Source: Catalinimonas alkaloidigena
Lineage (GTDB): Bacteria > Bacteroidota > Bacteroidia > Cytophagales > Cyclobacteriaceae
Length of the DNA: 64,000 nucleotides
Reading direction: 5' to 3'
Assembly: GCF_029504655.1 (NCBI RefSeq)
Contig: NZ_JAQFIL010000001.1
Span: 4,159,001-4,223,000 of the forward strand
Position numbers and translations under genes: made by a program
The notes under the pieces: generated by a model
What the model saw: the letters and a program-made list of their open reading frames with translations, nothing else
Told to the model about the DNA's origin: nothing
The model's database searches: none
Shown here: piece after piece, positions 7,326 to 54,011 of the stretch
Layout: each line of letters starts with the position of its first letter
Position numbering within the stretch: the first letter of the stretch is position 1

Positions 7326-7339
7326 CCAGGAACTTAGTA

Positions 7340-27181: not shown

Positions 27182-27218
27182 GGTATTGGCTATTAAATTG
27201 AAAATCAGATTCTTCTGC

Positions 27219-27236
27219 TTTACCTAAATGGGTAAA
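27219..27236. promoter_or_regulatory. Predicted TetR operator upstream of the efflux genes
   Basis: Perfect inverted repeat TTTACC, 6 bases, GGTAAA, in the 70-base gap between the tetR stop and the tolC start. Two more copies of the pattern flank the tetR start, which supports a specific operator. Confidence 0.8.
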
Positions 27237-27251
27237 TTATGGGTAAAAAAT

Positions 27252-27860
27252 TTAAGGTCGTAGCGCGCTTTTTACAAAATCGGCTATCAAAGTTTTACGC
27301 TCTTCTATCATCTTTTGAAATTCAGGATTGTCAGCATCAAGCAATACCTGTATCATAGGTCTGGCGACAAAAGGAAATATGCAAAGCCCTATGATATTTA
27401 TGATCAGTTGCTTAGGTGGAAAGGGCCTGATATTCCCATGCTCTATCTCATGCTGTATAGCATCCAGAAGTGCCTGAACATTGGGCCGACGCTTTTTGGT
27501 TAGCACTTTGTTAATGAATTCATCCGGATGGCGGTTGAGCTCATTGATGACAAACAATGGCAAATGCGGATGCTTGATCAGCATGTTCATATAGGTATCT
27601 ACCATCTTATCTATTTTATCATCCAGTGTATGCTGCGTGGAAATGATAGCATTAAGTCGGTTAACCATCAGGTCAAAAGCTTTGCTGAATACAGCTTCAA
27701 AGAGTTTGTCTTTGGTCTTGAAATAATAGTGAAGCAAACCCTTATTGATCTCTGCTCTGTCAGCAATTTCCTGCATACGAGCTCCGTTGAACCCCTTGCG
27801 CTGAAAAACCTGTTCAGCGGCATCAAGTATTTTTTCTTCAGTGTTAAAATCCTGTGTCAT
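27252..27860 (-). CDS. TetR-family transcriptional regulator of the efflux operon
   Basis: The 202-residue repressor has an N-terminal helix-turn-helix: AAEQVFQRKGFNGARMQEIA, then EINKGLLHYYFKTKDKLFEAVF, the textbook TetR pattern. A ligand-binding helical domain that I cannot assign to a ligand follows. It resembles CecR/YbiH, which controls ybhGFSR in E. coli, in both domain and context. It lies directly upstream of tolC on the same strand, with a 70-base gap that carries one operator. Two further operators sit at its own start, implying autoregulation. Confidence 0.93.
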   Translation of the reverse strand: MTQDFNTEEKILDAAEQVFQRKGFNGARMQEIADRAEINKGLLHYYFKTKDKLFEAVFSKAFDLMVNRLNAIISTQHTLDDKIDKMVDTYMNMLIKHPHLPLFVINELNRHPDEFINKVLTKKRRPNVQALLDAIQHEIEHGNIRPFPPKQLIINIIGLCIFPFVARPMIQVLLDADNPEFQKMIEERKTLIADFVKSALRP

Positions 27861-29606: not shown

Positions 29607-30326
29607 CTATAATTCATCACCTTCAATGGGCAAGAGACTTCCGTCCTCATCAATATGCTCCATTACCTCCTCAGGCGACATATACAGTCGCCTGATTCTT
29701 TCTTTATAGGCCAGGGGAATCTGGGCATTTTCAAGAATAAAATGTTTGGTGCTGAGTATTTCGCTACCCAGCTGATGATTGATGGCATACATATCGGCTC
29801 TCTGTTCCGCTTTTTTCAAATATTTTTCTGAAGTCAAATAACCTATGCCAAAGCGTATAAGCGCAAAACCGCTTCTGTTTTTGTAATCCATAATATGTCC
29901 TAACTCATGACCTAGCCATCCAATCAATGCCTCAGTAGGTAGCTCTTCCACCGGTATGGATTTATCTTTCAGCTTCAGGGCAGGGGTAATTTTTACAACA
30001 TACTTTCTTCTCTTTTTTCCCTGAAAGATACCGTACCATTTAGGCTGTGCCTGCATAAATGACTTGATAATATCTTTACGAAACACAAAATCTATTGGTG
30101 TTTCTGCCAGTTCAGGGTAGTGTGATAAAGCGGCAATAGCTTCATCTCGGATAATGTCAGGTATGGTTTTATTTTTTGTAAATTTCAAAGAATCAGCTTT
30201 GGTTAGTGTTTTTGGGGAAGCATTCTTAGCCACAGGTGTATCATCAGATTGAACCTCTCCTTTCTGAGCATAACACCAACTGATCAAAACGAATGTTACA
30301 GTGGCAAGCACAAGGCTACGTCGCAT
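29607..30326 (-). CDS. Secreted zinc metallopeptidase-like protein
   Basis: The 239-residue protein has a signal peptide (ending CYAQ) and a zinc-site motif GHELGHIMDY (HExxH). About 45 residues on comes KKAEQRADMYAINH, where the Glu of ExxxD could be the third ligand, as in M48-type gluzincins. The fold outside this core is not recognised. It is small for a peptidase and has no membrane span other than the signal. It is likely periplasmic or exported. It is alone on its strand between the convergent GH3 gene and the end of the giant gene. Confidence 0.75.
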   Translation of the reverse strand: MRRSLVLATVTFVLISWCYAQKGEVQSDDTPVAKNASPKTLTKADSLKFTKNKTIPDIIRDEAIAALSHYPELAETPIDFVFRKDIIKSFMQAQPKWYGIFQGKKRRKYVVKITPALKLKDKSIPVEELPTEALIGWLGHELGHIMDYKNRSGFALIRFGIGYLTSEKYLKKAEQRADMYAINHQLGSEILSTKHFILENAQIPLAYKERIRRLYMSPEEVMEHIDEDGSLLPIEGDEL

Positions 30327-30557: not shown

Positions 30558-33500
30558 TTACTGCTTCATGATTTTCCTGTCCACCACAAACTGATCGTGT
30601 GATATTCTCAAAATATAAGCTTCACTTGCTAATGTGGACAAGTCTAAAGCAATAGCTGTCTCACCATTCATCATTATTTTCTCATCCATGATGATTGAGC
30701 CTGTCATGCTTGAAATCATTATACTTACTTCTCCCTGCAGCGCCTGGTTAAACTCAACAGTCATATAGTCCATAAACGGGTTAGGATAAGTACCTACCAT
30801 AATTGGTATTTCATCTATTTGCTCCCTGAGGTCAGCTTCGGTCAGAACCAGTCCTTTGTCACCCTCAGCTAGTTTCAGCGCGGCCACCTCATTTGCAAAA
30901 CATGCATTGGTAGCTGCTCCACCAAGTCCACCGGGCTGTACACCACTGGTATTAAGGTGAAGTTTGTCTAGCTGAGTACCATCTTCACGGTAAGCGAATT
31001 CAATCGTATTATCTCCGCTGTTTAGGTTGAATGGAGCACCTGCCACTTCATTCCATGCAAAATTATTACTGATCGTCATACCCTGCCACCATTGAATCCA
31101 GTTACCTCCATTCACTCTCACCCAGAAGGAATCATTCACAAAGGAAGTAGCTTTCACCCTGGCAAACAGATAGTAAGCTCCGGTCTGCTGTACACTAAAG
31201 TTGTATTTTAGGATAGCCGTTTGACCTTCAGGAGCGGCAGCTAAACTACTTCCTGAAAGCTTCACTACATAAGCATCTCCGGAGGCTATATCATCAGCTA
31301 CCACACTCCACTGATTACCCAATTCATTTGCGCATTCAGCTTCCAGCCATACCTCTTCAGGTGTTAAAGCCGAAGGCTCATCGCAAAGGGTATTCACTTC
31401 AATATTTGAGAATTGCGCTGAAGCTACTGCATTGTTATCATGCGCTGTCAATGCCATACCAATCAATACATTGCTGCCCATGCTAATTTCAATACTGCCT
31501 AATTCTGTCCACTGCTGAGAAGTGCTTTCACGATAGTAACCCGTGAAGACCGACCCTTCTCTTACGATGCGCAACCATTCTGGAGCACTGCCAGGAGTAT
31601 TGGAGAAAGACATGTTGCCCCCGGTATTGACTCTATACTGAAAGTTTATGCCCTGCCCGGGGGTTACAACTATCATGGCATGCTTAGCGTTGGCAGCAGT
31701 GCTTTCTCTGATCATCACGCCTGCTTTGGCCCAGCTGTCTACTCCTTCCAACTCACTTAGCTGTACTATGATTTCTCCATCGCACGCCAGAGGCTGGTAC
31801 ACGTACCTGAACTCGTCAGAAGTACCCCAGATGTCACTGCCGGATGCAGTGATCTCAAATTCGCCAGCCGAATAACATGCTTCTCCGCTGCTGTTTCCAC
31901 CTCCAATATAGGTAGCTGTCCAGTCCGCAGGAAGCGGTCCACATCCGGGTGATTCTTCCACGCTAACGACCACCACATCGGTTGCCGTACCTCCATCATC
32001 ATCTGTGACTGTCAGCAGTAAGGTATGTATTCCCGCCGGCAGATCAACGGTAGGGTTAATTCCAGTAGCGATTTGTATACCACCCTCTGTCCAGACGTAA
32101 CTCTCAATGATTCCATCACTGTCTGACGAAGCACTACCATCCAGTTGTATTGTAGCAAATCCACTCTGTCCTGCTACCGCCTCCTGGTTAGAACCTGCTG
32201 AAGCGAACGGCAATTCATTGCTTACTGTCAACCCTATTACTTCTATCGCTGCAACTGTAGGTCTATTGACTGAAGCATCCATCAGCATGGTCAGCACGCC
32301 ATCTGTTACTTCAATATCTTCAAACTCCAGTACTAAGTACTTCTGCTGTGCGGCACCGGGTCCTACACCTTCGGCAAACAGATCCAGATCATTTTGAACC
32401 AGATTACCTTCCACGAAGATATCAAATACTCGCTGTCCTGCCTGTGCTGTGGGACCATTATAACCATAGTATAGCTCAGCATGATGCGTACGGATGGTAT
32501 AAGTACCGTTTGGCACAGGTATATTGTAGCTGAGTATACCGCCATTTGTCTCAGATCCCCTCTCTGTCTGATAAAGCGCAGGAGCATTCAAACTTGTGTT
32601 CTGATAAGTATGGTCACTATTGTGATACGCAGGATTGATACTCGCATCCGCCGTAAAACTATCTCCATTTAGGTTCAGACTCGGCCCGCCCGCATTGATG
32701 CGTAAGGCACTGGTCTCTTCCGGTGCTTCTTCTACAGTGATCACCACTACATCGCTTGCCGTACTTCCATCGTTATCAGTAACAGTAAGCTGTAAAGTAT
32801 GGATACCCACCGCTAGGTTTACTTTAGGGTTCACTCCCGTAGCAAGCTGAACGCCACCTTCTGACCACACATAACTCTCAATGGTGCCATCATCATCAAA
32901 AGAACCATTGCCATTCAACTCTACCTGTGCCAGGCCGCTTTGCCCTGCTACTACTTCCTGATCAGTACCTGCTGAGGCTACTGGTAACTCATTGCTGGCA
33001 GTTAATCCGAGCACTTCAATCGCTGATAATTTTGGCTGATTTACTGAAGCAGAGAAGTTCAGGTTCAAGGTACCATCGCTTACTTGTATTTCTACCTCTT
33101 TTACCACTGCAGTCATGCTTCCTACATCTGCAATAATATCATAGTTGCTAAGTCCCGGAATTGCATTTCCTTCCGCACTTACACTAAATATCCGCTTGCC
33201 AGCACCTCCGGCACCACCGCTGGTAGCCCCAAAGTATATCTCCGCAAAATGCAGTCGCACTAAATAGGTACCTGTTGTTACGGGAATATTATAGGCGAAG
33301 CTTTGCAAATTCTGGAGGGTGCTGCGTTCTGTCAGATATAGTTCATCAAAGCTGGTACCCGCAATGCTGGTGATATTGGTATTTGCATAAGATTTACCAT
33401 TGCCATTAAAATACTGATCGGCCACAAAAGTTTCTCCGAAAGCGTTTATCTGCCCACCCCCAGCGTTGATTCGGATGGCTGAGAACACATCGGGGGCTTC

Positions 33501-36500
33501 CTCTACGGTAATGGTCACTTCATCAGTGGCAATAGCTCCATCATCGTCGGTGACTGTTAAGGTAAGCACATGTACTCCTACCCCCAGTTCTACCTGGGTG
33601 ACAGCATTGGTACCATTGTACAGCACCGTTCCACCTTCGCTCCAGTTGTAGTTTACGATCTCTCCATCCGTATCGCTGGAAGCACTACCATCAAGCGTAA
33701 CGCTTAAGTCTGCAAATCCCGTAGTCGGATCTGCACTAGCCACCGCGGTAGGAGCCTCATTGGGTTCTACATACTCTATCACCTCAATACCACCGATACT
33801 TGGACGGTTTGTACCTCCTTCACCTGTCGCTGATGTAAAGAAGATATTGAGTACCCCATCATTTACGGTAACAGGGTTTTGAAGTGCAAAAACGACTCCG
33901 GTAGCTGAAGCATTACCCGCCTCGGCATATATATTATAGTTATCAAGCACTTTTTCCCCTTCAATGAATACGTCAAAGAGGCGAGGGCTGCCACCTCCAA
34001 TAGGAGCACCGCCAGGGGTACCGAACCAAATTTCAGCCATATGCAGCGCTATCTGATACTGGTTAGACTCCCCTGCTACAGGAATAGCATATGAGAAGCT
34101 TCCATTATTACTGTCAGCACTTCTTTCTGTCTGATACACTGTTCCATTCAGGTTAGTCAGATCTGTTCTACTGGAAGTTTTATTGCTTCCAGCGAAGTAT
34201 TGATCAGCCTGAAATTCCTTGCCATCCATCGTAATCGCAGGACCACCAGTATTGATGCGGATAGCAGTCAGGTCAGCACCGCAACCTTCGTCTATCACTC
34301 CATTACAGTTATTATCCACGCCATCACAAATTTCAGGAGCTCCGGGGTAGATATCAGCGTTTCCATCATTACAATCTACATCATTGGTAAAGCCATCACC
34401 GTCAGCATCTATCGGCCCTCCACCAGGATTAACATTGATACTGAAGTTACGGCTGAATGTATTGTTCACAGCCTGTCCATCATTTAGCGTCAACACGAGC
34501 TGAGCTGTACCGCTTAAATTGGTGACAGGTGTATAAATCAGATCTCCGGTTTCCACATTTACCACAGGTTGACCTGTAGAAGTAAACAATTCAGGAGCGT
34601 TTGTCTCCAGATCAAAACTTAAGGCCTGTTCTACCTCACTGTCACCATCATCAATGTTGAAGGCCCAGCCAAAGACTGTTTGCTCCTCCAGACTAGTATT
34701 GGTGGTAGCATTGGCTGACAGGTCAAAGAAAGGCTCGTCATTCACCGGCGTCACTGAAATCGTGATCGTAGCCGGTGCAGAACTTTCATACCCATCATTC
34801 ACCTGGAAGGTAAAGCTATCCGACCCACTTTCAGATTCATCGTTAAGTTCTGCATCTGGTGTATAGGTAAGGTTAGGGGCTTCGCCGCTTAAAGTTCCAA
34901 AAGACGGAACATCAATAATAGTGTAGCTTAGCTCATTGTCATCAGCGTCCGTTCCACTCAAAGCAATATTTAGTGGTGTATCTTCCTCAGTAGTCAGGTT
35001 CTGAGCAACAGCCACAGGTACGAGATTAGCCACACCCGTAAGGGGTATCAGCAGTGGCTTTTCTGAGTAATCATTATTCACTACCAGCGTAGCCTCTTTA
35101 TCCCCCGAAGTCATAGGCACAAAGTTTACAGTAATGCTGGCAGACTCACCACTGGCAAGCTGTGTATCTATGCCTGTCTGTTCAATTTCAAAGTCAGCCG
35201 CATCTTCACCTGTGATTTGCAAGGAAGAAATATTCACAGTAGGATAGCCTGCTTCACCAATATTGGCAATACTGATTGTCTCGCTACTGCTGGTCTCAGT
35301 CTCAATGATGCCATAGTCTACACTTTCAGGGGTTGAAGCAAGCAACTGAGGCACTGCCCCTTCTACGTTAAGCGTGAAGGTTTCACTTGCATCCAAACCG
35401 TTGTAATCGGTGATCGTTACGGCTATTTCATAGCTTGATTTAGCGTTAAATGGAGGTGTTCCACTCAGCACCCCTGTATTCTCATCAAGCACCAGCCAAT
35501 CAGGCAGAGCCTCCAGGGTCTGGCTGATGTTAGCAGTATACAGGATCTTGTTTCCAGGATAACCATTGTTAAAGAATCCTGAGAGATCAAAAGTAAAAGG
35601 TTGATTCGCTGTGGCTACAGCATCATCAATAGGCAAAGCGAATGGTACCGCTTCCGGACGTATATTGATAAAGTAAAAGGTATTATCATTCCAGTCGCAG
35701 TTTGCAGAGCCTGCGCCGCATCCATTTCCGATGAAATCCTGCAATACAATATATTCATTAGGGATTACATTGCCATTATGGTCTATCACTCTATATACCC
35801 TCACTCCCAACAATGAGCCGCCATTCTTTCCTGAGGTAGTCTCTCCTGAAACATTGATGCGGAAAGGCTGATTGATAGTATTGGCTGCATCAAAATTAAT
35901 GTTACCACTATTATCTGCTTTGCGAGGAAGTAGCGTTTGGTACCAGAACTGATTGTGATTGAAGTTTATCCCTCCAACAGTACCTGAACCATTCACTTCA
36001 ACAAGTTTAGCGCCATTTGATCCCGGCCCACCATGCAAAGCGGACAACTGTATCCCTATCACTGGCTGCTCAGGGTCTGCCTGTACAAACGTAGAAGAAA
36101 GTATCAAATCTCCTTCGTATCCACCATCTATGTTAGCTGGCAAAGGAAAATTTGAACTAGGGTTGGTAGTAGGTGTGGCTGTCACTTCTCCTTCATCATT
36201 AACATAACTTAGCATGCTAGTCTGGAAACCGAAAGCATCAAATACTTTTTGTGCATTGATTTCATCCCCTCCTTCAGGCTGAGGTGAGTATGCACCATGA
36301 AGGGTAGCACTCACATCCTGTGCATTATCAGCATTCGTGGTGAATGAGATGGGCTGCGTGAAGATTCCATTACTGCCGGTACCTGTTGTTCCAATGAAAG
36401 TCAGATTGATATCGCGTGACTCTCCGGGCGCAATAGTAATTGGCAGTGCTGTCGGAGCCTCTCCCTCCGGCAGAATCTCAAAGACAAACTCTGTAATATC

Positions 36501-45500: not shown

Positions 45501-48500
45501 ACCGGTAGCATTAGCCTTGATTTGATCAGGTAGATTGTTTCCGGATGCTCCTTCCCGCTCAACTCTTAATTCTATATCATCATCTGTTATTACCAGTTTA
45601 GCGAAATTATCTTCGTCAATGCCAAACCAAAGTCCTGCCTGCGCTGAGCCTGTACCCGTAGTAATCCCTTTCAGGCTGGTACTGATACGGAAGGTGCCTA
45701 GCAGGTTCTGCAAACCTACTCCCAGCGTGTTGACCTGATTATTATTGTTGGAACTGGCAGGAGGATCTAAGTAGGCGATCCCTGCCTGAGACAAAATGTC
45801 TAGCTGTCCACTTGTCGTATTTACTGTCAACAAAGCAGGCTCGTAGCCATTTACTTCGGGATTACTGATAGCAAGATCTCCATCTCTTCTGGCTTCTGAA
45901 TGCTCAAGTACCATGGTAAAACCAGTACCTGTTCCATTTCCATCAAGTAATTGACCCGCATCCGCACCAAAATCCAGGTTCAGCGGTAGAGTAACAGCTA
46001 TGTCTTCACAAGCTAATGTACTGATAGGGCTACAGGCTTCCACTTCTTCTATTACTGCTAACTCAAATACATCACTTACTACTTCAATGCCATCACTGGC
46101 TGTCACTTTAACCATCCATATACCCACTTCTGCAGGAGTACCATTGAAGGTACCTTCAACAAAAGTAAGCCAGACTGGAAGGGCAGTATCGTCTTCTAAG
46201 CTGGCTGTTAAAGTAAACTCTCCGTCCGCGTCTGCAAATGTATTCTCTGCTATGATGTACTCAAACAATGTACCCGCGGTAGCTGACTGATCCGGAATCA
46301 TATTGACTACCACCGGAGCATCATATACCTCAGTGAGGTTAAAGGTGAAGGTATAAGCAGCATCACTATAATTTTTGCCATCACTTACACTAAAGCTGAA
46401 TGAAGCATAGCTATCTCCATTAGCATTTTGTTCAGGGGTAAATGACAGATCAGAAATCTCTTCATGCAGGATGACGGTCTCTTCTGTGATTTCAGTACCA
46501 TTGAATGTGAGGCTACCTGCGCTTACGGGACTAACTGTTATTTCAGCCAGTTCGTCTCCTTCATCTTCGTCAACAAATACAAAATCTGTAGAAGCAAAGG
46601 TATAAACTTCATCTTCATCAATTGTGACCGTAATATCTTCCGATGTGGGGTAGGCATTCAGTGTATTCTTTACGGTAAATGTAAAGATATCTGTAGTCCA
46701 AAGTCCTTCTTCGTCGGTTGCCATAAGCTCAACATTATGGACGCCGAGATCTTCATCCTCAGGGTTTGCGATGATCAGTTCTCCAAAAACCAGGGTAACC
46801 CATTCTGGACTTCCGCTTCCTAAACTATAGTCAAGTTCATCCCCATCAATGTCAGAAAAGGTCTCCAGCGGCACTTCAAAAGATGTATATTCATTGACAA
46901 GAATAGCTATGTTACCGAGCGAAACCTCTACTTCAGGAGCATCGTTTTGTGCTGTCACATTGATACTCATGGTACTAAATTCACTATAGCTTTTACCATC
47001 ACTTACCGCAAAGCTAAAGCTTGTGTAATCTTCTCCGTTAGCATTAGCTTCCGGCATAAAAGATAGGAGACCGATATTGGCTAAGTAAATTTCAGTATCG
47101 CTTACTATTTCATTGGCGTCATAAATTAAACTCCCGGCAGTGGGTTGACTTACCTTTATAGCAATGAGCGCATCCCCTTCATCGGTATCACTGAATGGAA
47201 AATCATCAGCCTCAAATGTTAAAGCTGTATCTTCATCAGTATCTAATGTTTTATCTGAAGTAAGTGGAAGGCTGTTTTCAGTTAGAAATTCTTCTACATT
47301 GATGATTACATCGGTAGATGCTGAGGCTGTTGGTTCACCATCGTCAGTTACATTTATGGTTAGCGTATATTGGGAGTTTGTGGCAAATTCCAGTGCTCCA
47401 GCCAATGTGATAATGCCCAGGTTGTTGATGGCAAATACCTCATTAGTATTTCCTGCGCTAATTGAATAGCTTAAAGTTTGTCCTTCATCCGAATCTTCCG
47501 CTATAACTGTCCCTACTTCATCCGCAATATTGGCATTTTCAGAGATATTGAATTCAAAAGACGCATTGACAAATACCGGCGGAGAATTTGCCTCCTGTAA
47601 TTCTAAGATCTCAATGGCCTGAATGATACCATTATTAACAGTTGATATAAACTGAATATTAAGTTCATTATCAGTAACTTCTACTGTAAAGGTTTCAATA
47701 GCAACTACACCTTTTCCATAGCTATCCACCAAATCCAGGTCATCTACTTTTACTTCATCTTCTATCAATACATCAAATACCCTGGCTCCAGGCTCTCCAA
47801 AAAAGTTTTCTGCCATATGCAAGGCTACCGTATAAGTGCCATTAGCGATAGGTAAGTTATAGCCAAAATCTGCACCAAAACGACGGGGATAATATAGGTC
47901 AGCATCTCCTCCCCCCAACTCATATTCACTGTCGCTTACAGTAGTGGAGGCATTTTCTACCAGATAGTTAATATTCTCTACTACATATATATCACCTTCC
48001 TTATTGTAATCACTGCCTCCCACATTCATCCTGTAGGGAAGCGCAATGGGTGGCGTAGACAATACGTTCACATTAATATCCAACACAAGAGGTGTAAAAC
48101 CTACAGCCGTGGTAATTACTTCACTGTTGAGATGATCTCCTGCGGCTAAGGAAGCTGCACTGATTATAAATTCAATGTTGCCGACAGCGGGTATTTCCGG
48201 TAAGCTGAGCCATCCCCCATCAGTTGACGAATTGATGATCATGCCTACTGAGGGATTACCTGTACTTACTCCCAATGAAGTGTTTGCGACAGTTGATTCA
48301 CCACTTTCAACTTCTACCTGTAATGGTGTGGGGTCAAAGGTAAATGTAGCGGGTACTAACGGAGCCTGCGTAGTTTCGGTAATCTCTACATAATTTATCT
48401 TGGAATTGACACCTCCCAATGCATTGATTGTCAGGGCTCCATCATTCACTTCTACGACAAATGTATTGTGGGTCAGCCTCTCAAAACCACTACCCTCAGG

Positions 48501-51500
48501 CACATGAGTAGAAATGATAGTAGTTCCTTCTACATTGAAAGTATGGACTTCAGGGTCTTGTCCTGTACTGTAGTCTCCAGCGCCCAATTTAACTTCATAT
48601 ACGCCATTGGGTATTTCCAACTCCCAGTATACCTCGGTGCCTCTTGCCTGTCCCGCCCAGTTCCCGATATGATTGCCCTGTACATGAACGAGCGTTCCTT
48701 CAACCTTTTGCTGATCAGTTGCACCTGCATACCCACCCCCTAATCGGTTTCGTCCACTACCGTTTTGCGGACTGGTAATATCATGAGGTTGGTCATCGGA
48801 TACTTTCTTCCAGCCATAGGAAAAATTATTTCCTCTGTCACCAAATGCCTGTCCATAATCCTTGAGATAACCTGCCGGTGGTGTAGTAGCTTCATCCTGG
48901 AAGTTTACTTTTATAGATAAAGGCGCTACATATTCAGTAATATTGACAGTAATATCAGCCTCAGCAGCAACAGTCCCGTCATTGACCTCTACTGTTAATA
49001 TATAAGATGAACTGACATCAAAATCCAGTGAAGCCGCTACTGTGATATTTCCTTCATCATCTATAGCAAACACATCTCCGGCATTTCCAGAAATGATTTC
49101 AAATGTCAACACGTCCTCATCGGCGTCACTGGCCTCCACCTGACCTAGAAAATCACCCACTTGCGCATCTTCCTGTATTTCAAAGGTAGCCTCATTGATA
49201 GAGGGGGGCATATTGGTGATCTCAATTTCCTCTCCTTCTATCTGAAAAGCGTCTATCCGGAGACCGCCATTCACTGAAGCTGAGTATAGGCCAAGAGCAG
49301 AAAGCTGGCCCAGGGGGATATCGCTGGCAGGCGTATCACCTACTGACAAGTTGCTTCCTTCTACAAACTCCAATACTTTCCAATCTTCTGCGGAGGCGGA
49401 AAATGCGATAGTCTTCAGTTCGGCATCAGTGTTAAAGTTACTGGCACTGCTGATAGCTGTATTCGTTTTTCCATCATTGTGCACATACCAAACGTCATTT
49501 ACTTTGATGACTAAGTAGGTAGTATTTGAAGCAGAAGCATGTCCCTGATGCCAGGAGAACTGGATATTTTCATAACTGTCCAGGTTTATGCTGAACTCTT
49601 CGGTATATGCAAACCAACGGTCTGATGGAATATTAGCAAACAAGAATCCCTGCTTCTGGTCTGGGGTAGCCCCGGCATTAACATTATCTAAATTTGAAGG
49701 TTTACCATTAAAGCCTGAAATAGCTGCCTTAGGCTGTGGATCTTGTCTTCCAAATAGTGTAATCAGTTGAGCATTAGCTCCTTCATAATTATTCCATCCA
49801 GCCTCTGTGAGCGGGTCAATTGGTTCAGGAACATTATTCCCGGGATTTACCTCTGTATTATTATTCCCAAAAACTTCTCTATATAGTACCTGGCTGGAGG
49901 TAAGGGGTGGAGCTGTAGAAATTTGCAACTGAAAGTCATCAGCGGCAGAAAGGTTATTCTGATCTGTAGCAGTAATGACAATCTGATACGTATGCTCAGT
50001 ACTAAGGCCTTCACTCGCACTGAAAATCAAAGTGTTAGCTACTGCATTGAAGCCCAGCCAGGCCGGCAGGGGTTGTCCTCCCTGCAATTGGGCAGTGTAA
50101 GTAAGTGTCTCACTGTCTATTTCACCAAAAACATCGCTAAAACTAAAACTGAAAGCTGCACTTGCTTCAAAAGGGCCCTGATCTGTTAATGCACTAAGCA
50201 GAAAAGGTGGATTACTCCCAGCTTTCACGACTTCATTATAGGCTGTACTTATACGTATGGCCTGAAATATTCCGCTGCTACTTGCATTATTGGCTGATGT
50301 ACCGGCAAATAAACGCACAAATTCCAGACTCGTACTATTGGCAGAATGACTTCCTACCGGATTCCAGCTTACATCTCCTTCGTTTAGTGGCGGGTCTAGC
50401 GCAGCAGAATAATTAATCTGGTTCCCATCCCATACCGCTTTGATCACCCACTGATGACCTGTACCTGTACTTGCATCCTCTGTATAGTCATTAGGAGAAC
50501 TGGAACCGCTGGCTAAAGCAACCGCAGCTTTTAGCTGGTTTTCCTCATTAAGAATACGAAGACGTACTGACTCGGTATTGCCTAGATCACCATCCTTACT
50601 TAATTCAATAAATGAACGGTAGGCATTTCCACTTGGAAGGTTATTGAAATCTTCCACCATAAAATCTACCGCGTAATAGAATGGTACATCCTTTTGGATC
50701 GGATAAGGTTGATCAAAGTAATTATCGTCTCCTCCCGTATTATAATTGAACGCGGCATTCCCACTTCCACTAGTGAACTCTCCCCCTTTTTGATTAGTAA
50801 AACGGTCAGGAATCTTCCCTTCCTGTGCTACGATGGTAGCTGATCCACCATTGCCACCTCCCGGTACCCACTGAGACACTGCTTCTAACGCTCCCTCTGC
50901 ATAGTCAAACTCTTCAACCAAAGTAAAGCTACCACTGCTAACATTGAGTATAAAGTTAGTACTGTTACTAAGCGCTTCGCTATCTGTAGCAGTAATTTTT
51001 ATTTCATATATACCAGAAACAGTAGTTCCTTCTGATGCAGTAAAGGTACGACTAAGTCCATCAAAGCTTAGCCAGGATGGTAACGCGCTATCGTCAGCTA
51101 ATGATGCGCTGTAAGTTAACCCGCTTCCATCTTCTAAATCCTCAAAAGTATTCTCAGGAAATGTATAGCTCAAGGCAGCTCCTTCCTCTAAGATTACAGG
51201 TCCTTCTATTGGATTTAAAGTAACTGGTGCCTGATTTCCACTTGTTAAGCTTACTGAAAAATCATCAAATGAATAACTTAAAGCATTGGTTCCGTTTCTA
51301 TGGGTTGCAAACAGACCGGTGAAGGTGACATTTTGACTAAATTTTCCATCATGATCTGTACCACTAATGAAAGAAGCGGGTACTGCAAGTATACCTAATG
51401 ACTCCTCCTCCTGACCATCAATTGCATAAAATGCTTCCGCAGTGCTAGCTAACGGATCTATATATAACCTTAATGTTACAGTGCTGCCCGATACATTAGC

Positions 51501-54011
51501 TATACTTGCTTGAAGCTGATCACTATTTACGGACAGTGCATTCACTTCTCTGCGCAACGCAATTTCGCTACCGGAAGAAGTTGAGACCAGGACTAACTTG
51601 AAGAAATTGTCTTCATTCAGGCCAAACCACAAGCCTGCCTGCTCTGATTTTCCACTCCCACTCGGTGGGTTAATAAGTGTGGTTTTTACATTTAATGGTT
51701 CAGAAATACTTTGTAAACCAATGCCTAAAGTGTTTACCTGTGAGTTAGTGTTATTACTTTGTGATGGATTGCGATAAGCTATCCCTGCGGTAGTCGTAAC
51801 AGTTAAGCTCCCTGAGCTTAAACTCAAATTTGATGGCTCATAACCGGGAACATTGCTATCTGAAGGGGCAAATAAAGGAACTGATGGTGGATCAATCATG
51901 GTAAATCCGATCACGTTTCCATTGCCATCTTCTAGGCCATCAGTAGTTGACCCATCAAAATTTAAAACATAAGGCAAGCTTGTATTTTCAATAACTACTT
52001 CATTACATGCTAAGGGAGAAAGCGTTAAACATCCAGCAAACGGCTCTAAAGCACCCTGACTGATTAGAAATTCGTCTGAAGCGGTATTACCGTTCCAATC
52101 AGTAGCGCTTACCTTGATACTTAGGGCTTCAGACAGCTCTCCTGCCTGAGGGTTTCCTGTAAATATCTGCTCCAAAGGTTCAAAAATGAGCCATGCAGGT
52201 AAGTTGCTTCCATCACTAAGTGTAGCGTGATACGTAAGATGGTCATTCGCATCGTCTGCAAATGCATTGACAGGAACCTGGAAAGTGAAGGTTCCTCCTT
52301 CAGCAAAGGCTAAGTCCTGCAGCGGGTTAGCCACCGAAGGGGCATTGGAAGGATCGGGTAATGTACCACTCTGATGACCTACCGAGGTTTCCCAAATTTC
52401 ATATCGTGCAGCAAGATTATTGACAATAGCAGGATAACTACTGGATATGTTATTGAGCTCAGTAGGGTCTTCCTCGATATTATAAAGACTCCAGCTTCCA
52501 TTGCCAGAGTTAGATTGTATTTTCCATTTTCCATGTCTTACTGCTCTCTCACCGCTATATTCCCAGAATATCTCTCTTGCTTCAACTTGTGCCGGATCGT
52601 CAAAAATCTGGGCAAAGCTTTCTCCGGCTAAAGGTTTGATTATATTTCCGTTATAATTTGTGGGATATGCATGGGTAGAGCCGGCAGCTTCAAGCACAGT
52701 TGGCATGATATCTTTGACATGCCCTATCTGATCAGTAATGATCCCATTATTTTGTATGCCATCTGGCCAGTGCACTATGAGAGGAGTCGCAATTCCTCCT
52801 TCTTCAGTTTCGTTCTTATGTTTCCTGAATGGTGTATTGGACGCATTGGACCACTCTTTCAAGTAAGACAGGTAAGAGCCTTGTTCCCCAATTAATTTAC
52901 TATCATCATGATTATTTCTCCCTGATACATCCTCAGCACTTCCACCATTGTCTGACATAAACATGATAAGCGTATTATCATACGTCCCATTATCTTTGAG
53001 GTATTGCACTAACTTTCCAATAGCCTGGTCCATTCTGGAGACTTGAGCAGCATATACCTGCATACGACGTGTATAGTCAGCTTTGTCCAGATCATCATCA
53101 TTGGAGCCATTATCGTCAGAAATACTGCTCCAGGCTTTGCCATCTCTGGCACTAAGTTGGGTTCCCGGTGCTATAATCCCTTTGGTGACCATGTTTTGCA
53201 ACCTGGCATTTCTAATGTTATCCCATCCATCATCGTATACACCATCATAAGCTGCAATGTCGGATTCGTAAGCATGCAATGGCCAGTGGGGTGCTGTAAA
53301 TGACAGATAAAGGAAAAAGGGATCACTTGTTCTGGTACTTTGGTGATCGTTCAAAAAATCAATAGCAAAATCTGTAGTAGCGTCAGTCATATAAAATCCA
53401 TCACGCCCGTGACGAAGCTGGTCTGCCGAAGTATAGTCTGTTGCCGGATTCCAGGATTGTGAACCCAGCGCCATTTGCCTGCCATTTTCGGTAAGTAGCT
53501 CATAATAGCTGTTCGCTCCACTAATTAATCCCCAGTAGTTATCAAAACCTCTTTCCGTTGGCCAGTGGGCAGAATTTTCACCCACGTGCCACTTTCCTGA
53601 CATATAAGTGCCATACCCCTCGCTTTTCAATACTTCAGCAATGGTTACCGTTTCGGGAGAAAGATAGCCCAGGTAAGCTGGAGAGTTTCCACTCCCGGAA
53701 GTGGTTAAATTTTCCATGCCGGCTGCATGAGGATACTGACCGGTTAACAGGGAAGCCCGCGTAGGACTGCATTTGGCGGTATTATAAAACCTCCTGAATT
53801 TGATTCCATTATCGGCAAGTGCATCCAGATTAGGCGTCTGAATTTCACTGCCGTAAGAACTTAAATCTGAAAAACCCATGTCATCAGCTAAGATGACAAT
53901 TACATTAGGTTTTTGAGCAAAGCTATTGCTTGCACTTAGAAGCATGAATAGCAATAAAAGAAGAACATTCAGGCTGTTAAATTTTGATGGCAAAGAAGTT
54001 TTGGGCCACAT
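30558..54011 (-). CDS. Giant (7817 aa) T9SS-secreted sulfatase fused to a multi-module carbohydrate-binding scaffold
   Basis: One uninterrupted frame encodes a protein of about 0.8 MDa. Residues 1-33 are a signal peptide (ends SFAQ). Residues 34-553 are an arylsulfatase-type domain with metal ligands in ILADDMG, formylglycine motif CSPTR (Cys81), GKWHVG (Lys140, His142) and MSDNGGS (near 350). About 45 modules follow. They include Ig-like He_PIG, cadherin-like, BACON-like, PKD and Hydin-like domains, three lectin-like domains, five malectins (1986, 4063, 6581, 6840, 7099), two beta-propellers (3320-3756, 4631-5098), a MopE-type calcium motif (6531-6580), and two late binding modules (7352-7541, 7543-7700). 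The end is a T9SS type-A sorting domain (about 7740-7817, opening TYPNPFMDYMTVEF and closing IMKQ). Known: such C-terminal domains direct secretion and surface anchoring. Inferred: a surface sulfatase with a polysaccharide-binding scaffold. No frameshift was seen, and the layout is consistent throughout. Confidence 0.93.
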   Translation of the reverse strand: MWPKTSLPSKFNSLNVLLLLLFMLLSASNSFAQKPNVIVILADDMGFSDLSSYGSEIQTPNLDALADNGIKFRRFYNTAKCSPTRASLLTGQYPHAAGMENLTTSGSGNSPAYLGYLSPETVTIAEVLKSEGYGTYMSGKWHVGENSAHWPTERGFDNYWGLISGANSYYELLTENGRQMALGSQSWNPATDYTSADQLRHGRDGFYMTDATTDFAIDFLNDHQSTRTSDPFFLYLSFTAPHWPLHAYESDIAAYDGVYDDGWDNIRNARLQNMVTKGIIAPGTQLSARDGKAWSSISDDNGSNDDDLDKADYTRRMQVYAAQVSRMDQAIGKLVQYLKDNGTYDNTLIMFMSDNGGSAEDVSGRNNHDDSKLIGEQGSYLSYLKEWSNASNTPFRKHKNETEEGGIATPLIVHWPDGIQNNGIITDQIGHVKDIMPTVLEAAGSTHAYPTNYNGNIIKPLAGESFAQIFDDPAQVEAREIFWEYSGERAVRHGKWKIQSNSGNGSWSLYNIEEDPTELNNISSSYPAIVNNLAARYEIWETSVGHQSGTLPDPSNAPSVANPLQDLAFAEGGTFTFQVPVNAFADDANDHLTYHATLSDGSNLPAWLIFEPLEQIFTGNPQAGELSEALSIKVSATDWNGNTASDEFLISQGALEPFAGCLTLSPLACNEVVIENTSLPYVLNFDGSTTDGLEDGNGNVIGFTMIDPPSVPLFAPSDSNVPGYEPSNLSLSSGSLTVTTTAGIAYRNPSQSNNTNSQVNTLGIGLQSISEPLNVKTTLINPPSGSGKSEQAGLWFGLNEDNFFKLVLVSTSSGSEIALRREVNALSVNSDQLQASIANVSGSTVTLRLYIDPLASTAEAFYAIDGQEEESLGILAVPASFISGTDHDGKFSQNVTFTGLFATHRNGTNALSYSFDDFSVSLTSGNQAPVTLNPIEGPVILEEGAALSYTFPENTFEDLEDGSGLTYSASLADDSALPSWLSFDGLSRTFTASEGTTVSGIYEIKITATDSEALSNSTNFILNVSSGSFTLVEEFDYAEGALEAVSQWVPGGGNGGSATIVAQEGKIPDRFTNQKGGEFTSGSGNAAFNYNTGGDDNYFDQPYPIQKDVPFYYAVDFMVEDFNNLPSGNAYRSFIELSKDGDLGNTESVRLRILNEENQLKAAVALASGSSSPNDYTEDASTGTGHQWVIKAVWDGNQINYSAALDPPLNEGDVSWNPVGSHSANSTSLEFVRLFAGTSANNASSSGIFQAIRISTAYNEVVKAGSNPPFLLSALTDQGPFEASAAFSFSFSDVFGEIDSETLTYTAQLQGGQPLPAWLGFNAVANTLIFSASEGLSTEHTYQIVITATDQNNLSAADDFQLQISTAPPLTSSQVLYREVFGNNNTEVNPGNNVPEPIDPLTEAGWNNYEGANAQLITLFGRQDPQPKAAISGFNGKPSNLDNVNAGATPDQKQGFLFANIPSDRWFAYTEEFSINLDSYENIQFSWHQGHASASNTTYLVIKVNDVWYVHNDGKTNTAISSASNFNTDAELKTIAFSASAEDWKVLEFVEGSNLSVGDTPASDIPLGQLSALGLYSASVNGGLRIDAFQIEGEEIEITNMPPSINEATFEIQEDAQVGDFLGQVEASDADEDVLTFEIISGNAGDVFAIDDEGNITVAASLDFDVSSSYILTVEVNDGTVAAEADITVNITEYVAPLSIKVNFQDEATTPPAGYLKDYGQAFGDRGNNFSYGWKKVSDDQPHDITSPQNGSGRNRLGGGYAGATDQQKVEGTLVHVQGNHIGNWAGQARGTEVYWELEIPNGVYEVKLGAGDYSTGQDPEVHTFNVEGTTIISTHVPEGSGFERLTHNTFVVEVNDGALTINALGGVNSKINYVEITETTQAPLVPATFTFDPTPLQVEVESGESTVANTSLGVSTGNPSVGMIINSSTDGGWLSLPEIPAVGNIEFIISAASLAAGDHLNSEVITTAVGFTPLVLDINVNVLSTPPIALPYRMNVGGSDYNKEGDIYVVENINYLVENASTTVSDSEYELGGGDADLYYPRRFGADFGYNLPIANGTYTVALHMAENFFGEPGARVFDVLIEDEVKVDDLDLVDSYGKGVVAIETFTVEVTDNELNIQFISTVNNGIIQAIEILELQEANSPPVFVNASFEFNISENANIADEVGTVIAEDSDEGQTLSYSISAGNTNEVFAINNLGIITLAGALEFATNSQYTLTINVTDDGEPTASASTDVIINVEEFLTENSLPLTSDKTLDTDEDTALTFEADDFPFSDTDEGDALIAIKVSQPTAGSLIYDANEIVSDTEIYLANIGLLSFMPEANANGEDYTSFSFAVSDGKSYSEFSTMSINVTAQNDAPEVEVSLGNIAILVNEYTSFEVPLETFSDIDGDELDYSLGSGSPEWVTLVFGELIIANPEDEDLGVHNVELMATDEEGLWTTDIFTFTVKNTLNAYPTSEDITVTIDEDEVYTFASTDFVFVDEDEGDELAEITVSPVSAGSLTFNGTEITEETVILHEEISDLSFTPEQNANGDSYASFSFSVSDGKNYSDAAYTFTFNLTEVYDAPVVVNMIPDQSATAGTLFEYIIAENTFADADGEFTLTASLEDDTALPVWLTFVEGTFNGTPAEVGIWMVKVTASDGIEVVSDVFELAVIEEVEACSPISTLACEDIAVTLPLNLDFGADAGQLLDGNGTGTGFTMVLEHSEARRDGDLAISNPEVNGYEPALLTVNTTSGQLDILSQAGIAYLDPPASSNNNNQVNTLGVGLQNLLGTFRISTSLKGITTGTGSAQAGLWFGIDEDNFAKLVITDDDIELRVEREGASGNNLPDQIKANATGASGADVLLELEADPVTNAVTAFYTINEGTRTELGTLTVPTNFFNGRTLYEGSELSFAGIFATHRNGTQFTASFDEFSVESLMEPVLTFTPKTLEFSVEEGGLTSALASTLVASEGDPLITLSEDPEANWLILPENTSIGNLSFGIDAEGLVPDVYTTSVFAIAEGYVSAELIVTLEVTESATEPLVIQVNFQDEASTPPPGYLKDDGQPYGMKVTPEGYDYGWLTVDGQSGLDLTANGRNRDRVGIDLLLNTIIHMQYGHTGGGNGNLTEGIWEIGVPNGEYQVTVTVGDEPGGNNAYDSQHSINVEGVSAISQFQGASAKEYETATVVVNVQDSALTLDAAGGTNTKINSVLIESLSAGSLLPRVLSVIPADGSTNIALNTNISANDLYLPNANEIGNYGVDNNSITNSTVKLFKDADNTEIPSNVGGTGGGDAINLTPAIPLEANTTYRFEIDGVTDLTGIAFEAFSSTFTTGSGSSVGAGDLDQVAFTKAGTVASGAGYTSLTIGPDGKFYGLAIGGEVHRWIIEADGTLSNKETFDVLIQKYGARSAVGFTFDPDATAENLIAYISHCSGGLNNAPEWDGKISRLSGLNLETEELIVTNLPRSKKDHLTNSIAFRPGEPNVLYFNQGSNSAGGAPDNAWGNRLERLLSAAVLRLDLDKLPSSEWPLDAMTTMNAQAINSVDVSSPSLDGMYNPYHTDAPLTLYATGVRNAYDLVWHSNGQLYVPTNGTAAGANSPASIEGTRRPDGTFYDHNIYPQIPAVNGNKVQRDWLFRIDPNASIGYYGHPNPLRGEFVLNRGDADTDDAVYNGVLPDPNYRGAAFDFEFNKSPNGVIEYKSNAENGNLTGSLLVVRYSGGSDIIALVPDGTNGDIGTSKAGIPGFTNLSGPLDLVEDVNTGNIYVSEYGANKITLIRPSNQAAPKPVIALSPEKIVTDGITGSGAGENYTVFISNNGNAELNDISVNLTGADASEFTIDQSSLPNALAAGASASIKVAFNPDSNGPKFASIEVSGTDAESKQTSLSGLGKQGTGGSNEPSLQWILDTYGIAVNAGDQNPATNLINLANGLTYNSLLGDEVSIQKFERASDAPVTLEVLSVYGPESSNPIVGFGWYQAGLANALNELFTVQNTVSGNGQTLTPNLNGSLTFDPGLEAFGFYNYWPFFNNRTLYSEDALNTFSGAIPHHIRVYPLPGEANAYVIATEEHVSGFDYQDIVVIARNIRPADSTPPVAEAIRINAGGTLAYTDSQSNTWQLDGQYLTGSSEISSKTFDVQGTEEDLLFLEYRFAQAGTDGVGLPFGYQMPVESTEPVTVNLYFVEPFFGVPGTSGANQGGTGNRVFSVNIEGGQGTLTDFDMNAEVVTPGTAIIRTFENITVTDGSLNIDFTSSVNNAIISAIEVIGADDKPVLACSPISTLACEEIIQTLPFVLNFTGAEGGIENTGFTMVDPPSARLSADGTISNPQVPGFDPARLSLSSGTLQIDAAKGLAFARNGSGEGFSDEVNSQINTMGVGFNANAGSFSLQTTIINPYSDASNNFEQAGLWFGLDEDNYVKLVVRNAGIIELRAEENGLTPDATQIMLEDLDVIHNSNVTLRLLINPAELTLTAFYALNDGREVEMGTMPLYASLINGANVDGQEVSFGGVFASKRRENANVPVVYSFEDFSITPEEITEPFFTGVNPADGATGVALNSFQIVVGLLTPDGYELDKATLSGNVKLIKDNGPNDQVEVPANVNDTGGGDAIILTPIDRLDPLSEYIFRVDGVEANLIGDLNDRMSFTPFESRFTTGTDDDTNPTADLAGVSFTQVKGAALGEGIEDRFSSLVIGPDGKLYGSTTSEVIKRWDINADGSLSNLQILTPELNGAPHPSDGARDNNNRLIIGLTFAPEATADNLIAYVTHSALTLSDGPEWDGMISQLSGPDLATVKDVVIHLPRSLKDHLTNSIIFGPDGDIYLSQGSNTAGGKPDAAWGFRPERLLAGAVLKLDLDLLDENSWPLDAYTTDNISVINNAPANSIRMTDGTYNPYATSSPLTIFSTGVRNAYDLVWHTNGWLYVPTNGTAGNNSSSPNTPASADYAPVRRPDGTLFTDTSIPGVNGGETQKDWLFKSFKGSYHGHPNPLRGEFVLNHGGISYSGLPGQQESAYTDVAKYPNDLGPDPDYVEPAFDFGKNKSPNGAIEYKSNAFGGAMKGLLLVTRFSGQDDIIVLQPGNNSGDVIEAYEDVPGLQGLDDPLEIVEDINTGNIYMAQYDRDGSVNQQLVLLRADDQASPVAQLAVEPGELVFETTVNNEGNQTDEQELTVTNQGTAELSINSISIGGAFASQFSLSGAGSITLQPGESTVYTLTYQPDLNQNDLGYQEASLILESNDGESESINVGLHALKKSGFEGNQEPPLQAVVDALGIGINVGWTSLSNGTAPAPEGEEVIAPLFVKAGAGNISIEPVGRYSPAEELPFGWYTNIEGSVTTHEVGILADGIDEAQTLYPAVSSGSTEFNPQGAYFGIFVESNSFGRFNYTEDAINTGGVAHRTRIYPVKDRDGNVEANSYLVCFEDATNGDYQDYMFVLSNVKPYEEGSLLLTLNPASLNFIVGTGGEALAQTVTLSANSGIAGDNVNLTASESWVVLPDEVIVGSPMAFNVNVADLAEGNYTATVTASSPGYVGAGMDINLSVRDEIVWTYQFNFQDGSVSSPEGYVDDTGLPFGTKTVGGESLSFGWVEAGTTTPADATANTRNRGVSGVGGLENTLNIINHQNSPLQYPPRDWMIELPNGLYYVNVSVGDPGTDDDSNHEVEVNGVTIVTFDEAVNGPLGTHTAEGTEIVEVTDGILILTQGTGGSNTKVNYVRLSPVDGSTLPPSIFAELEGNAFAENVYRGRVSISLQAADNSNSGGIASLTYELDSQGVQTYNEAIVVDEVGEHTLVVVAEDNNGNVTEEIFSLTVEAASGALLAIENMTKVPGTDRGFPADDYYTFHRLGSPGQALVHDANVMRVHNTGTAALVISDIIIPDITEFVFEILPEGEAPTALPITIAPGESRDINLTFIGTTGTGSNGIFTQPISFTTNADNAQDVSATLHGAYSPQPEGGDEINAQKVFDAFGFQTSMLSYVNDEGEVTATPTTNPSSNFPLPANIDGGYEGDLILSSTFVQADPEQPVIGIQLSALHGGPGSNGAKLVEVNGSGTVGGINFNHNQFWYQTLLPRKADNSGNINFDAANTINQPFRINVSGETTSGKNGGSLLGVRVYRVIDHNGNVIPNEYIVLQDFIGNGCGAGSANCDWNDNTFYFINIRPEAVPFALPIDDAVATANQPFTFDLSGFFNNGYPGNKILYTANISQTLEALPDWLVLDENTGVLSGTPPFNAKSSYEIAVTITDYNGLDASETFTLNVEGAVPQLLASTPESVDYGIIETETSSSETISIANIGEAGYPTVNISSLQITGEDAADFEIEQTGIDTQLASGESASITVNFVPMTSGDKEATLVVNNDYSEKPLLIPLTGVANLVPVAVAQNLTTEEDTPLNIALSGTDADDNELSYTIIDVPSFGTLSGEAPNLTYTPDAELNDESESGSDSFTFQVNDGYESSAPATITISVTPVNDEPFFDLSANATTNTSLEEQTVFGWAFNIDDGDSEVEQALSFDLETNAPELFTSTGQPVVNVETGDLIYTPVTNLSGTAQLVLTLNDGQAVNNTFSRNFSINVNPGGGPIDADGDGFTNDVDCNDGNADIYPGAPEICDGVDNNCNGVIDEGCGADLTAIRINTGGPAITMDGKEFQADQYFAGSNKTSSRTDLTNLNGTVYQTERSADSNNGSFSYAIPVAGESNQYQIALHMAEIWFGTPGGAPIGGGSPRLFDVFIEGEKVLDNYNIYAEAGNASATGVVFALQNPVTVNDGVLNIFFTSATGEGGTNRPSIGGIEVIEYVEPNEAPTAVASADPTTGFADLSVTLDGSASSDTDGEIVNYNWSEGGTVLYNGTNAVTQVELGVGVHVLTLTVTDDDGAIATDEVTITVEEAPDVFSAIRINAGGGQINAFGETFVADQYFNGNGKSYANTNITSIAGTSFDELYLTERSTLQNLQSFAYNIPVTTGTYLVRLHFAEIYFGATSGGAGGAGKRIFSVSAEGNAIPGLSNYDIIADVGSMTAVVKEVEIQVSDGTLNLNFSASVNQPKLSAIEVLGLTASNELPVASAGTDQEVVAGQSGLAQVELNGNGSFDDDGTIESYVWSEGGVQLATGVNPKVNLAVGIHTLQLTVTDNDGSTASDVVVITVEEAPEETSALRINAGGPSLNLNGDSFTADASINPAYHNSDHTYQNTSLNAPALYQTERGSETNGGILSYNIPVPNGTYTIRTHHAELYYGYNGPTAQAGQRVFDIFVEGNLVQNDLDLFAEGVGPGAAQQKYLVLEFEDIEVTDGVLTMLMDASVNRPTVAAIEVIGLTVSNELPFASAGSNQEAVAGQSGFATIQLDGSASSDSDGIIESYVWTEGGIQIATGINPTVDLPAGIHTLLLTVTDDDGGTATDVVVVSVEESPGCGPLPADWTATYIGGGNSSGEACYSAGEFEITASGSDIWGTSDEFRYVYQPLACDGEIIVQLSELEGVDSWAKAGVMIRESTAANAKHAMIVVTPGQGINFQYRVNTGGNMSFSNTPGSAPEWLRIVREGSVFTGYYRESTSQQWTELGSIEISMGSNVLIGMALTAHDNNAVASAQFSNIEVNTLCDEPSALTPEEVWLEAECANELGNQWSVVADDIASGDAYVVKLSGSSLAAAPEGQTAILKYNFSVQQTGAYYLFARVKATSFVNDSFWVRVNGGNWIQWWQGMTISNNFAWNEVAGAPFNLNSGDNTIEFAYREDGTQLDKLHLNTSGVQPGGLGGAATNACFANEVAALKLAEGDKGLVLTEADLREQIDEIPIMVGTYPNPFMDYMTVEFNQALQGEVSIMISSMTGSIIMDEKIMMNGETAIALDLSTLASEAYILRISHDQFVVDRKIMKQ
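30561..30795 (-). other. T9SS C-terminal sorting domain of the giant protein
   Basis: Residues of about 7740-7817 show the type-A pattern: YPNPFMDYMTVEF, a central SIMISSMTGSIIMDE strand pair, DLSTLASEAYILRI and a basic end VVDRKIMKQ. It is cleaved when the cargo is attached to the cell surface in known T9SS systems. Confidence 0.9.
31960..34270 (-). repeat. Triple malectin-PKD tandem in the giant protein
   Basis: Three consecutive pairs: malectin (34270-33778, 33490-33018, 32717-32240), each followed by a PKD domain (33770-33500, 33014-32730, 32235-31960). The malectins open with AIRINTGGP, AIRINAGGGQ and ALRINAGGPS. The PKDs share ASSDTDGEI/GSFDDDGTI and LTVTDDDG cores. Malectin folds bind short glucose-type or related oligosaccharides in characterised cases. 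Confidence 0.88.
34273..34420 (-). other. MopE-type metal-binding motif in the giant protein
   Basis: About 50 residues with DADGDGFTNDVDCNDGNADI followed by PGAPEICDGVDNNCNGVID. This is the cysteine- and aspartate-rich repeat seen in many secreted proteins and expected to bind calcium. Four cysteines are spaced as in the family. Confidence 0.88.
35660..42400 (-). repeat. Three copies of an unnamed module ending 'R-Y ... N-R-P' in the giant protein
   Basis: The copies lie at 42400-41835, 38345-37800 and 36255-35660 (about residues 3871-4060, 5223-5404 and 5919-6118). Each ends with a related core: HHIRVYPLPG, HRTRIYPVKD or LGVRVYRVID, then a segment such as NAYVIATEEHVSGFDYQD, and a final NIRP or NVKP. 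The function is not known to me. Each follows a Hydin-like domain. Confidence 0.75.
38720..44055 (-). repeat. Two paralogous beta-propeller domains in the giant protein
   Basis: The copies lie at 44055-42745 and 40120-38720. They share SLTIGPDGKFYG/SLVIGPDGKLYG, a KDHLTNSI motif, RNAYDLVWH, the identical stretch YGHPNPLRGEFVLN, FNKSPNG/KNKSPNG and EDVNTGNIYVSEYG/EDINTGNIYMAQYD. They resemble the soluble glucose/sorbosone dehydrogenase propeller group. Whether a cofactor binds is not clear, and they may be binding domains only. Confidence 0.85.
40512..52045 (-). repeat. Three copies of a lectin-like module in the giant protein
   Basis: The copies lie at about 52045-51245, 46045-45250 and 41300-40512. 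All begin with a C-x(n)-LAC(N/E) segment (CLTLSPLACNEV, CSPISTLACEDI, CSPISTLACEEI). All share GFTMIDPPS/GFTMVLEHS/GFTMVDPPS, a QVNTLGIGLQ-like strand, EQAGLWFGLNEDNFFKLV-like strands and an F(D/E)DFS end. The fold looks like a concanavalin-type sandwich. Confidence 0.85.
47600..48055 (-). other. First malectin domain of the giant protein
   Basis: About residues 1986-2140: YRMNVGGSDY opening, then GDADLYYPRRFGADFGYNLP and YTVALHMAENFFGEPGARVF, closing with GIIQAIEILE. A second divergent copy lies at 41825-41308 and three more near the C-terminus. Confidence 0.88.
52353..53912 (-). other. Sulfatase domain of the giant protein
   Basis: Residues of about 34-553 form an apparently complete type I sulfatase. 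The formylglycine precursor is Cys81 in CSPTRASLLTG, so maturation needs a formylglycine-generating enzyme or anSME encoded elsewhere. Metal-site residues are seen at both ends, and the C-terminal subdomain has GKWKIQSNSGNGSWSLYNIE. The substrate class cannot be read from the sequence. Confidence 0.92.

Follow-up and report, generated by a model that had tools for sequence, protein, structure and literature searches.

How did a sulfatase come to stand at the N-terminus of a predicted surface protein of 7817 residues, and what is the remainder of that protein? The question arises from a 64,000-nucleotide stretch of the genome of Catalinimonas alkaloidigena (contig NZ_JAQFIL010000001.1, positions 4,159,001 to 4,223,000), hereafter called the window, in which one gene, located at 30558..54011 on the (-) strand, encodes both a sulfatase and a very long chain of modules that ends in a sorting domain of the type IX secretion system (T9SS). 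The answer that we consider probable is that the protein belongs to a giant T9SS scaffold family of marine Bacteroidota and that in this genome it has gained an N-terminal S1 sulfatase with intact active-site positions. This reading is based on the single frame, the intact positions, a fusion at the end of the enzyme, homologues that carry no sulfatase, and a congener locus without the gene.

The giant gene is a single uninterrupted frame with an ATG start and zero internal stops. From stop to stop it has 7831 codons and it lies well within a contig of 7.735 Mb (C1), in a genome of 7.92 Mb that comprises 3 contigs and is 99.7% complete. Separate sulfatase and scaffold genes that were wrongly joined by assembly or annotation would agree with the listed close sulfatases, which are stand-alone, and with the scaffold homologues with complete N-termini, which begin with a signal peptide of their own. 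However, 23.4 kb run without an internal stop in the 7.7-Mb contig of a 3-contig genome, and the joint leads into a He_PIG domain and, after it, some 2000 residues of other modules, with no scaffold signal peptide. Among the codons of residues 541-720, ATG occurs once and GTG and TTG twice each, in no case followed by a signal-peptide-like sequence, and the GC content, 0.40-0.49 along the gene, has no step at the joint between sulfatase and scaffold. We consider such an artefact highly improbable.

The protein begins with a signal peptide, residues 1-32 (53916..54011, (-)), with a cleavage site placed by eye between SFA and QKPN, so that Gln33 follows. Residues 33-546 (52374..53915, (-)) are, by sequence, a complete S1-type sulfatase, the end of which was taken from a homology probe described below. 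PF00884 matches residues 35-444 at 1e-64, covering positions 1-300 of the 301 in the profile, and is accompanied by SGSH_C. The closest solved structures by sequence are 7all (5e-86) and the arylsulfatase 1hdh (3e-84), and the sulfatase of the window aligns with both. The formylglycine signature CSPTR is found at residues 81-85 (53757..53771, (-)). Its C81, P83 and R85, together with D43, D44, H242, D354 and K399, are the same in each of the 15 aligned sulfatases, that of the window included; D43, D44, H242, D354 and K399 are residues that we take to bind metal or sulfate.

In a tree of these 15 sequences, the fused sulfatase groups (support 0.94) with a 557-aa frame of the congener G002, to which it is 55% identical, and with a 539-aa paralogue of the same genome (G000), to which it is 53% identical; both enzymes are stand-alone. 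An origin from the adjoining 486-aa sulfatase (54986..56446, (-)), the only other sulfatase frame in the window, was rejected, since these two enzymes are nearer and the neighbour is only 23% identical. Many further sulfatases are encoded in the genome, which has 80 PF00884 matches (in some cases several fall on a single gene), and this number, together with a branch that is modestly longer than those of its nearest relatives, would suit a sulfatase that is a dead passenger on an adhesin. Against this, the eight checked active-site positions and the alignment with the solved sulfatases are intact and no frameshift occurs across 23 kb, which makes a dead enzyme quite unlikely. The sulfatase of the window is the only PF00884 match of its genome in a frame of more than 1179 codons. 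That 1179-codon frame corresponds to a sulfatase fused to a GH78 rhamnosidase, 1171 aa in length (L125:3293-6808; G000:C1, ~2069292).

The point of fusion was located with residues 400-665, which include the end of the enzyme and the following He_PIG domain, as a probe against 390 genomes of the family and 395 of the phylum, the source genome being in both sets. Outside the window protein, the matches listed end at query positions 111-183, mostly at 142-149, which is near residue 546, and several of those that pass position 155 run across a stop codon. The phylum search (E 1e-25) listed 33 matches besides the window gene, all in frames of 514-736 codons. The sulfatase looks fused at its natural end and grafted onto the N-terminus of the scaffold. 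A sulfatase frame of 1331 codons in another genome (G311), the one longer frame among the family matches listed, was rejected as a second fusion, because it has an internal stop and the list of open reading frames gives separate frames of 557 and 762 aa. The initial annotation of the window had named many homologues with the same fusion as what would speak against it; among the matches listed in the family, phylum and named-locus searches, no other sulfatase on a giant T9SS protein was found, while weaker sulfatase subfamilies on other giants could still exist.

The chain that follows the sulfatase has relatives of its own. With the first propeller of the protein as a probe, matches were found in 38 of the 390 family genomes. 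Fifteen genomes besides the source hold a giant homologue, with 66-74% identity in the propeller and open frames of 4044-7355 codons, some of which a contig end or a gap cuts short. These 15 frames gave no sulfatase match (the best blastp E value is 0.19, and at E 10 the sulfatase hidden Markov model (HMM) matches the window protein only). A complete N-terminus with its own signal peptide is present in 13 of the 15, the other two being cut or broken at the 5' end, and 12 have a ConA-type motif within the first 400 aa. The window protein departs from this family start, a signal peptide followed by a ConA-like domain, in that the sulfatase and He_PIG come first.

Furthermore, the scaffold was found in 47 named GTDB loci, from Cyclobacterium, Zobellia, Arenibacter, Maribacter, Algoriphagus, Aquiflexum, Pleomorphovibrio, Neolewinella, Dyadobacter, Aquimarina and others. 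Because 12 of the 15 giant homologues coincide with named loci, the number of distinct scaffold loci is about 50 and not 62. At E 0.001 the sulfatase HMM has no match among frames of at least 150 aa in the 47 named loci, which include no more than 10 kb of DNA upstream of the match to the propeller; in control loci it matched 13 frames, of which one is weak (2.7e-4) and some are training sequences. By a crude hydrophobicity test, 39 of the 47 have a signal-peptide-like start; four frames are open at the 5' end and some further ones start without a signal peptide. Among these loci the scaffold propeller was also seen, with 42-44% identity, in one metagenome-assembled genome of Phycisphaerales and in two Nakamurella (L115, L117 and L118), the latter genus presumably belonging to Actinomycetota, hinting at a transfer between phyla. 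The source genome itself has a scaffold paralogue with a single propeller (L052, G000:C1:5910770-5912347) in a frame of 2581 codons, of which the congener G001 has a 2832-codon counterpart.

Piecewise comparison with six homologues, made after a self-BLAST of the whole protein gave no off-diagonal matches, divides the scaffold into regions. Residues 1-600 are matched in none of the six. The N-terminal arm, residues 547-2654 (46050..52373, (-)), consists of He_PIG, ConA-like, cadherin, malectin and Big_9 modules in an order unlike that of the relatives; the ConA-like, He_PIG, cadherin and malectin modules of residues 655-2650 occur in a different order in the homologues. The arm includes a malectin domain at residues 1993-2127 (47631..48035, (-); Pfam and piecewise comparison), and the malectin piece 1951-2100 is 57-58% identical to a near-N-terminal stretch of two Cyclobacterium homologues (G195 and G216). 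The core, residues ~2655-6220 (35352..46049, (-)), has the same order in the giant homologues and is collinear with all six at ~31-81% identity, which is highest in propeller 1, and a few of its pieces align instead with a paralogous stretch at another place in the homologue. None of the six has a match to pieces 7351-7650.

The core contains two propellers, both with the GSDH-type fold of sugar dehydrogenases that use pyrroloquinoline quinone (PQQ). Propeller 1 comprises residues ~3324-3757 (42741..44042, (-)) and keeps D3447, H3448, R3549 and N3550. Propeller 2, with its leading Big_5 domain, comprises residues 4541-5112 (38676..40391, (-)), is 51-53% identical to propeller 1 and keeps the same residues; a strong match to it is found in 11 of the 15 homologues. 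The equivalents of His144, Arg228 and Asn229, the roles of which in PQQ sugar dehydrogenases are described in part of a published study (PMC6881810), are invariant in all 34 aligned propellers, the Arg/Asn stretch being aligned at only 0.7 bits. PF07995 matches 13 of these 34 at E <=0.01, propeller 1 of the window not among them, and a search for PqqC gave no match, but its controls were unmatched too. With these key positions kept in two propellers of this fold, the scaffold is probably not purely binding. The propellers might even be the working part, several enzymes being joined in one chain as a surface quinoprotein sugar dehydrogenase for which the sulfatase trims the captured glycan, a possibility that we hold to be doubtful.

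These results change part of the initial description, which had spoken of about 45 binding modules and of a binding arm. By an eye tally from domain scans and piecewise comparison, which is an estimate and not a computed count, the modules number 40-50, so the order of magnitude was right; "binding" is too strong, because many modules are of Ig, PKD or Hydin type and both propellers have an enzyme fold. A complete sulfatase does stand on a protein with a T9SS sorting domain. However, the relatives of the scaffold form a separate giant family, in which each member starts with a signal peptide of its own where the N-terminus is complete and no sulfatase was found, so the scaffold did not evolve as an arm for the enzyme. 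What that description had said of the coordinates and the one leftward frame agrees with the open reading frame list, the translation and the 7.735-Mb contig. The signal peptide, CSPTR at 81-85, the module types and the C-terminal sorting domain hold by Pfam, NCBIfam and translation, and the sulfatase, called apparently complete, has a nearly full-length PF00884 match (1e-64) and intact active-site positions.

The sorting domain, which had been called a T9SS anchor, is of type A and occupies residues 7742-7817 (30561..30788, (-)). Por_Secre_tail (PF18962) matches residues 7742-7814 with 37.4 bits (cut-off 27) and TIGR04183 with 29.2 bits (cut-off 23), both above their cut-offs. SprA, the sole T9SS component searched for, is encoded in the genome (2527 bits). 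The signal peptide, the C-terminal domain and SprA mark the giant protein as a T9SS type A cargo with a predicted location at the surface. A candidate formylglycine-generating enzyme (FGE) is found in a 378-codon frame (PF03781, 2.5e-80) that has a lipoprotein-like signal and, near its end, a Cys-x4-Cys motif, which we take to be an FGE trait. Other PF03781 matches in the genome could represent GldK/GldJ-like proteins, because one protein of the T9SS ring has a fold of the PF03781 type, as stated in an excerpt of PMC12421860.

The locus differs between congeners. In G001, the orthologues of the neighbours on the two sides of the giant gene, the 239-aa gene at 29607..30326 ((-), 67% identity) and the 486-aa stand-alone sulfatase (74%), are 138 bp apart and the giant is absent between them. 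With this spacing, the giant gene and its spacers amount to a difference of ~24.5 kb, which would be either a gain here or a loss in G001. A simple transposition of the giant gene was rejected: the 138-bp site of G001 and the window junctions have no convincing repeat or sequence in common (the best short match has 20 bp, E 0.002), and no target-site repeat was seen. In G002, 122 kb separate the outer flanks; the 239-aa gene still stands beside the GH3 gene, and for the 486-aa sulfatase no orthologue was seen in the two stretches examined. 

Several points weigh against a scaffold that has gained a working sulfatase. The fusion protein and its activity are predicted from sequence. No SusC/SusD pair was seen among the neighbour genes scanned, which were part of those in the window, so the gene is not in an ordinary polysaccharide utilization locus. 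Measured from the common node, the branch of the fused sulfatase is 0.78, versus 0.57-0.60 for its two nearest relatives, and this modestly faster branch could reflect a change of substrate or a somewhat weaker constraint. Nor is a core with two propellers general in the family, since four of the 15 homologues (G003, G108, G338 and G372) lack a strong match to the second propeller, partly perhaps because of cut contigs; in the six-homologue comparison, G108 and G372 have no second-propeller stretch of their own. Finally, a protein of such length might be cleaved into pieces after export.

If a sulfatase was indeed grafted onto the scaffold, the protein would be exported by the Sec system and FGE would mature the sulfatase in the periplasm by forming formylglycine. 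The folded giant would then cross the SprA translocon and be anchored through its C-terminal domain; with this end at the cell, the N-terminal sulfatase would be the far end and would project far from the cell. Lectin-like and malectin modules could hold a sulfated algal polysaccharide, and removal of sulfate at a distance could make it accessible to further enzymes of the surface and perhaps also to the propellers of the same protein, which would oxidise sugars or only bind them. The steps up to the outward-projecting sulfatase rest on domain logic, while glycan holding, desulfation and propeller oxidation are what we infer beyond it. A line of three sites, in which the sulfatase desulfates polysaccharide held by lectin-like and malectin modules and the sugars thus exposed are oxidised at the cell surface by the two PQQ-type propellers, is rather unlikely; if true, the scaffold without sulfatase would represent giant surface quinoproteins that are widespread among marine Bacteroidota and form an undescribed family.

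Known systems resemble parts of this protein. Stand-alone S1 sulfatases of the PAS/7all type (PF00884 with SGSH_C) share the domain, the formylglycine signature, the active-site positions and the end point of the enzyme, but the nearest of them are frames of ~515-740 aa (up to ~830), whereas that of the window forms the N-terminal part of a protein of 7817 aa that also has a T9SS domain. Fusions of sulfatases with glycoside hydrolases, reported for Kiritimatiellales, Polaribacter and Planctomycetes in sections of PMC6388578 and seen in the sulfatase-GH78 entry 6hr5, likewise join a sulfatase that acts on sulfated polysaccharides to another polypeptide; their partner is a glycosidase, whereas no glycosidase catalytic domain was found on the window protein in Pfam or NCBIfam scans at E 0.01. 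The PQQ-dependent sugar dehydrogenases (sGDH, Asd, AA12) have the same propeller fold and the aligned His144, Arg228 and Asn229 positions are kept; in the window protein, two copies lie within a giant surface protein and catalysis is putative. The scaffold family shares the core order, ConA-like, malectin and Ig-type modules and propellers and, by eye, T9SS-like C-termini in several members, but no sulfatase was found in its 15 genome frames or 47 named loci. A likeness to calcium lectins of the LecB/PA-IIL type is tentative, and a sequence search gave no match. Very large extracellular proteins that carry Big_9 and Cadherin domains have been described, in a report whose main text does not mention a sulfatase (PMC11573180).

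The literature searched yielded neither a sulfatase on a giant T9SS protein nor a description of the scaffold family. One such molecule might allow a cell to hold seaweed-type sugars, to desulfate them and perhaps to oxidise them, which may be relevant to the attack on algal sulfated polysaccharides at the cell surface. In Zobellia galactanivorans on fresh macroalgae, T9SS genes and three unknown TIGR04183 proteins rise, according to part of PMC9296495. The protein also suggests N-terminal grafting as a way to place an extracellular enzyme on a giant bacterial surface protein, and the sulfatase-free homologues and the gene-free congener locus are available for comparison. The best conserved units of this giant T9SS-type family resemble quinoprotein sugar dehydrogenases and not mere adhesin spacers.

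The remaining modules were assigned with Pfam and NCBIfam, whose E-values place the sulfatase and many modules far past chance. Beyond the sulfatase, Pfam finds malectin, He_PIG, cadherin, Big_9, Big_5, PKD, HYDIN-type Ig and MopE modules. Malectin and PKD repeats occupy residues ~6580-7345 (31977..34274, (-)) by Pfam and piecewise comparison. They are followed by a DUF1349-like module, residues 7345-7545 (31377..31979, (-); 3.3e-4, below cut-off), and a GH115_C-like module, residues 7546-7710 (30882..31376, (-); 7.1e-5, 23.1 bits against a cut-off of 24.1). Matches to NF049877 and GH43_C2 fall on accessory domains, that to NF049877 being far under its own cut-off and across malectin-type stretches. 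DUF4114 was rejected for the module at residues 3866-4070 (41802..42416, (-)), as 7 of 48 members match at E <=0.1, the best at 0.017.

Rhamnosidases occur near both the giant gene and the nearest relative of its sulfatase. A GH106 alpha-L-rhamnosidase lies upstream of the giant and crosses the window edge (63065-64000 of the window; L017:65-2818, 917 aa in the L017 frame). The locus of the nearest sulfatase paralogue (L123/L124, G000:C1:5018000-5056000) has SusC-like receptors, SusD, FecR proteins, a GH78 rhamnosidase and several sulfatases. The rhamnosidase neighbours hint, weakly and without a claim on our part, at a rhamnose-containing sulfated glycan as substrate.

Elsewhere in the window, 9175-12261 (-) encodes a 1028-aa STAND-like protein with a NACHT/AAA_16-like P-loop region at residues 682-862, which has no PADLOC match. 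An exporter cluster at 21154-27860 (-) comprises a TetR protein, an outer-membrane efflux protein, HlyD, two ABC ATPases and two ABC2 membrane proteins; it adjoins tRNA-Gly and tRNA-Leu and is unmatched between conserved flanks in G001.
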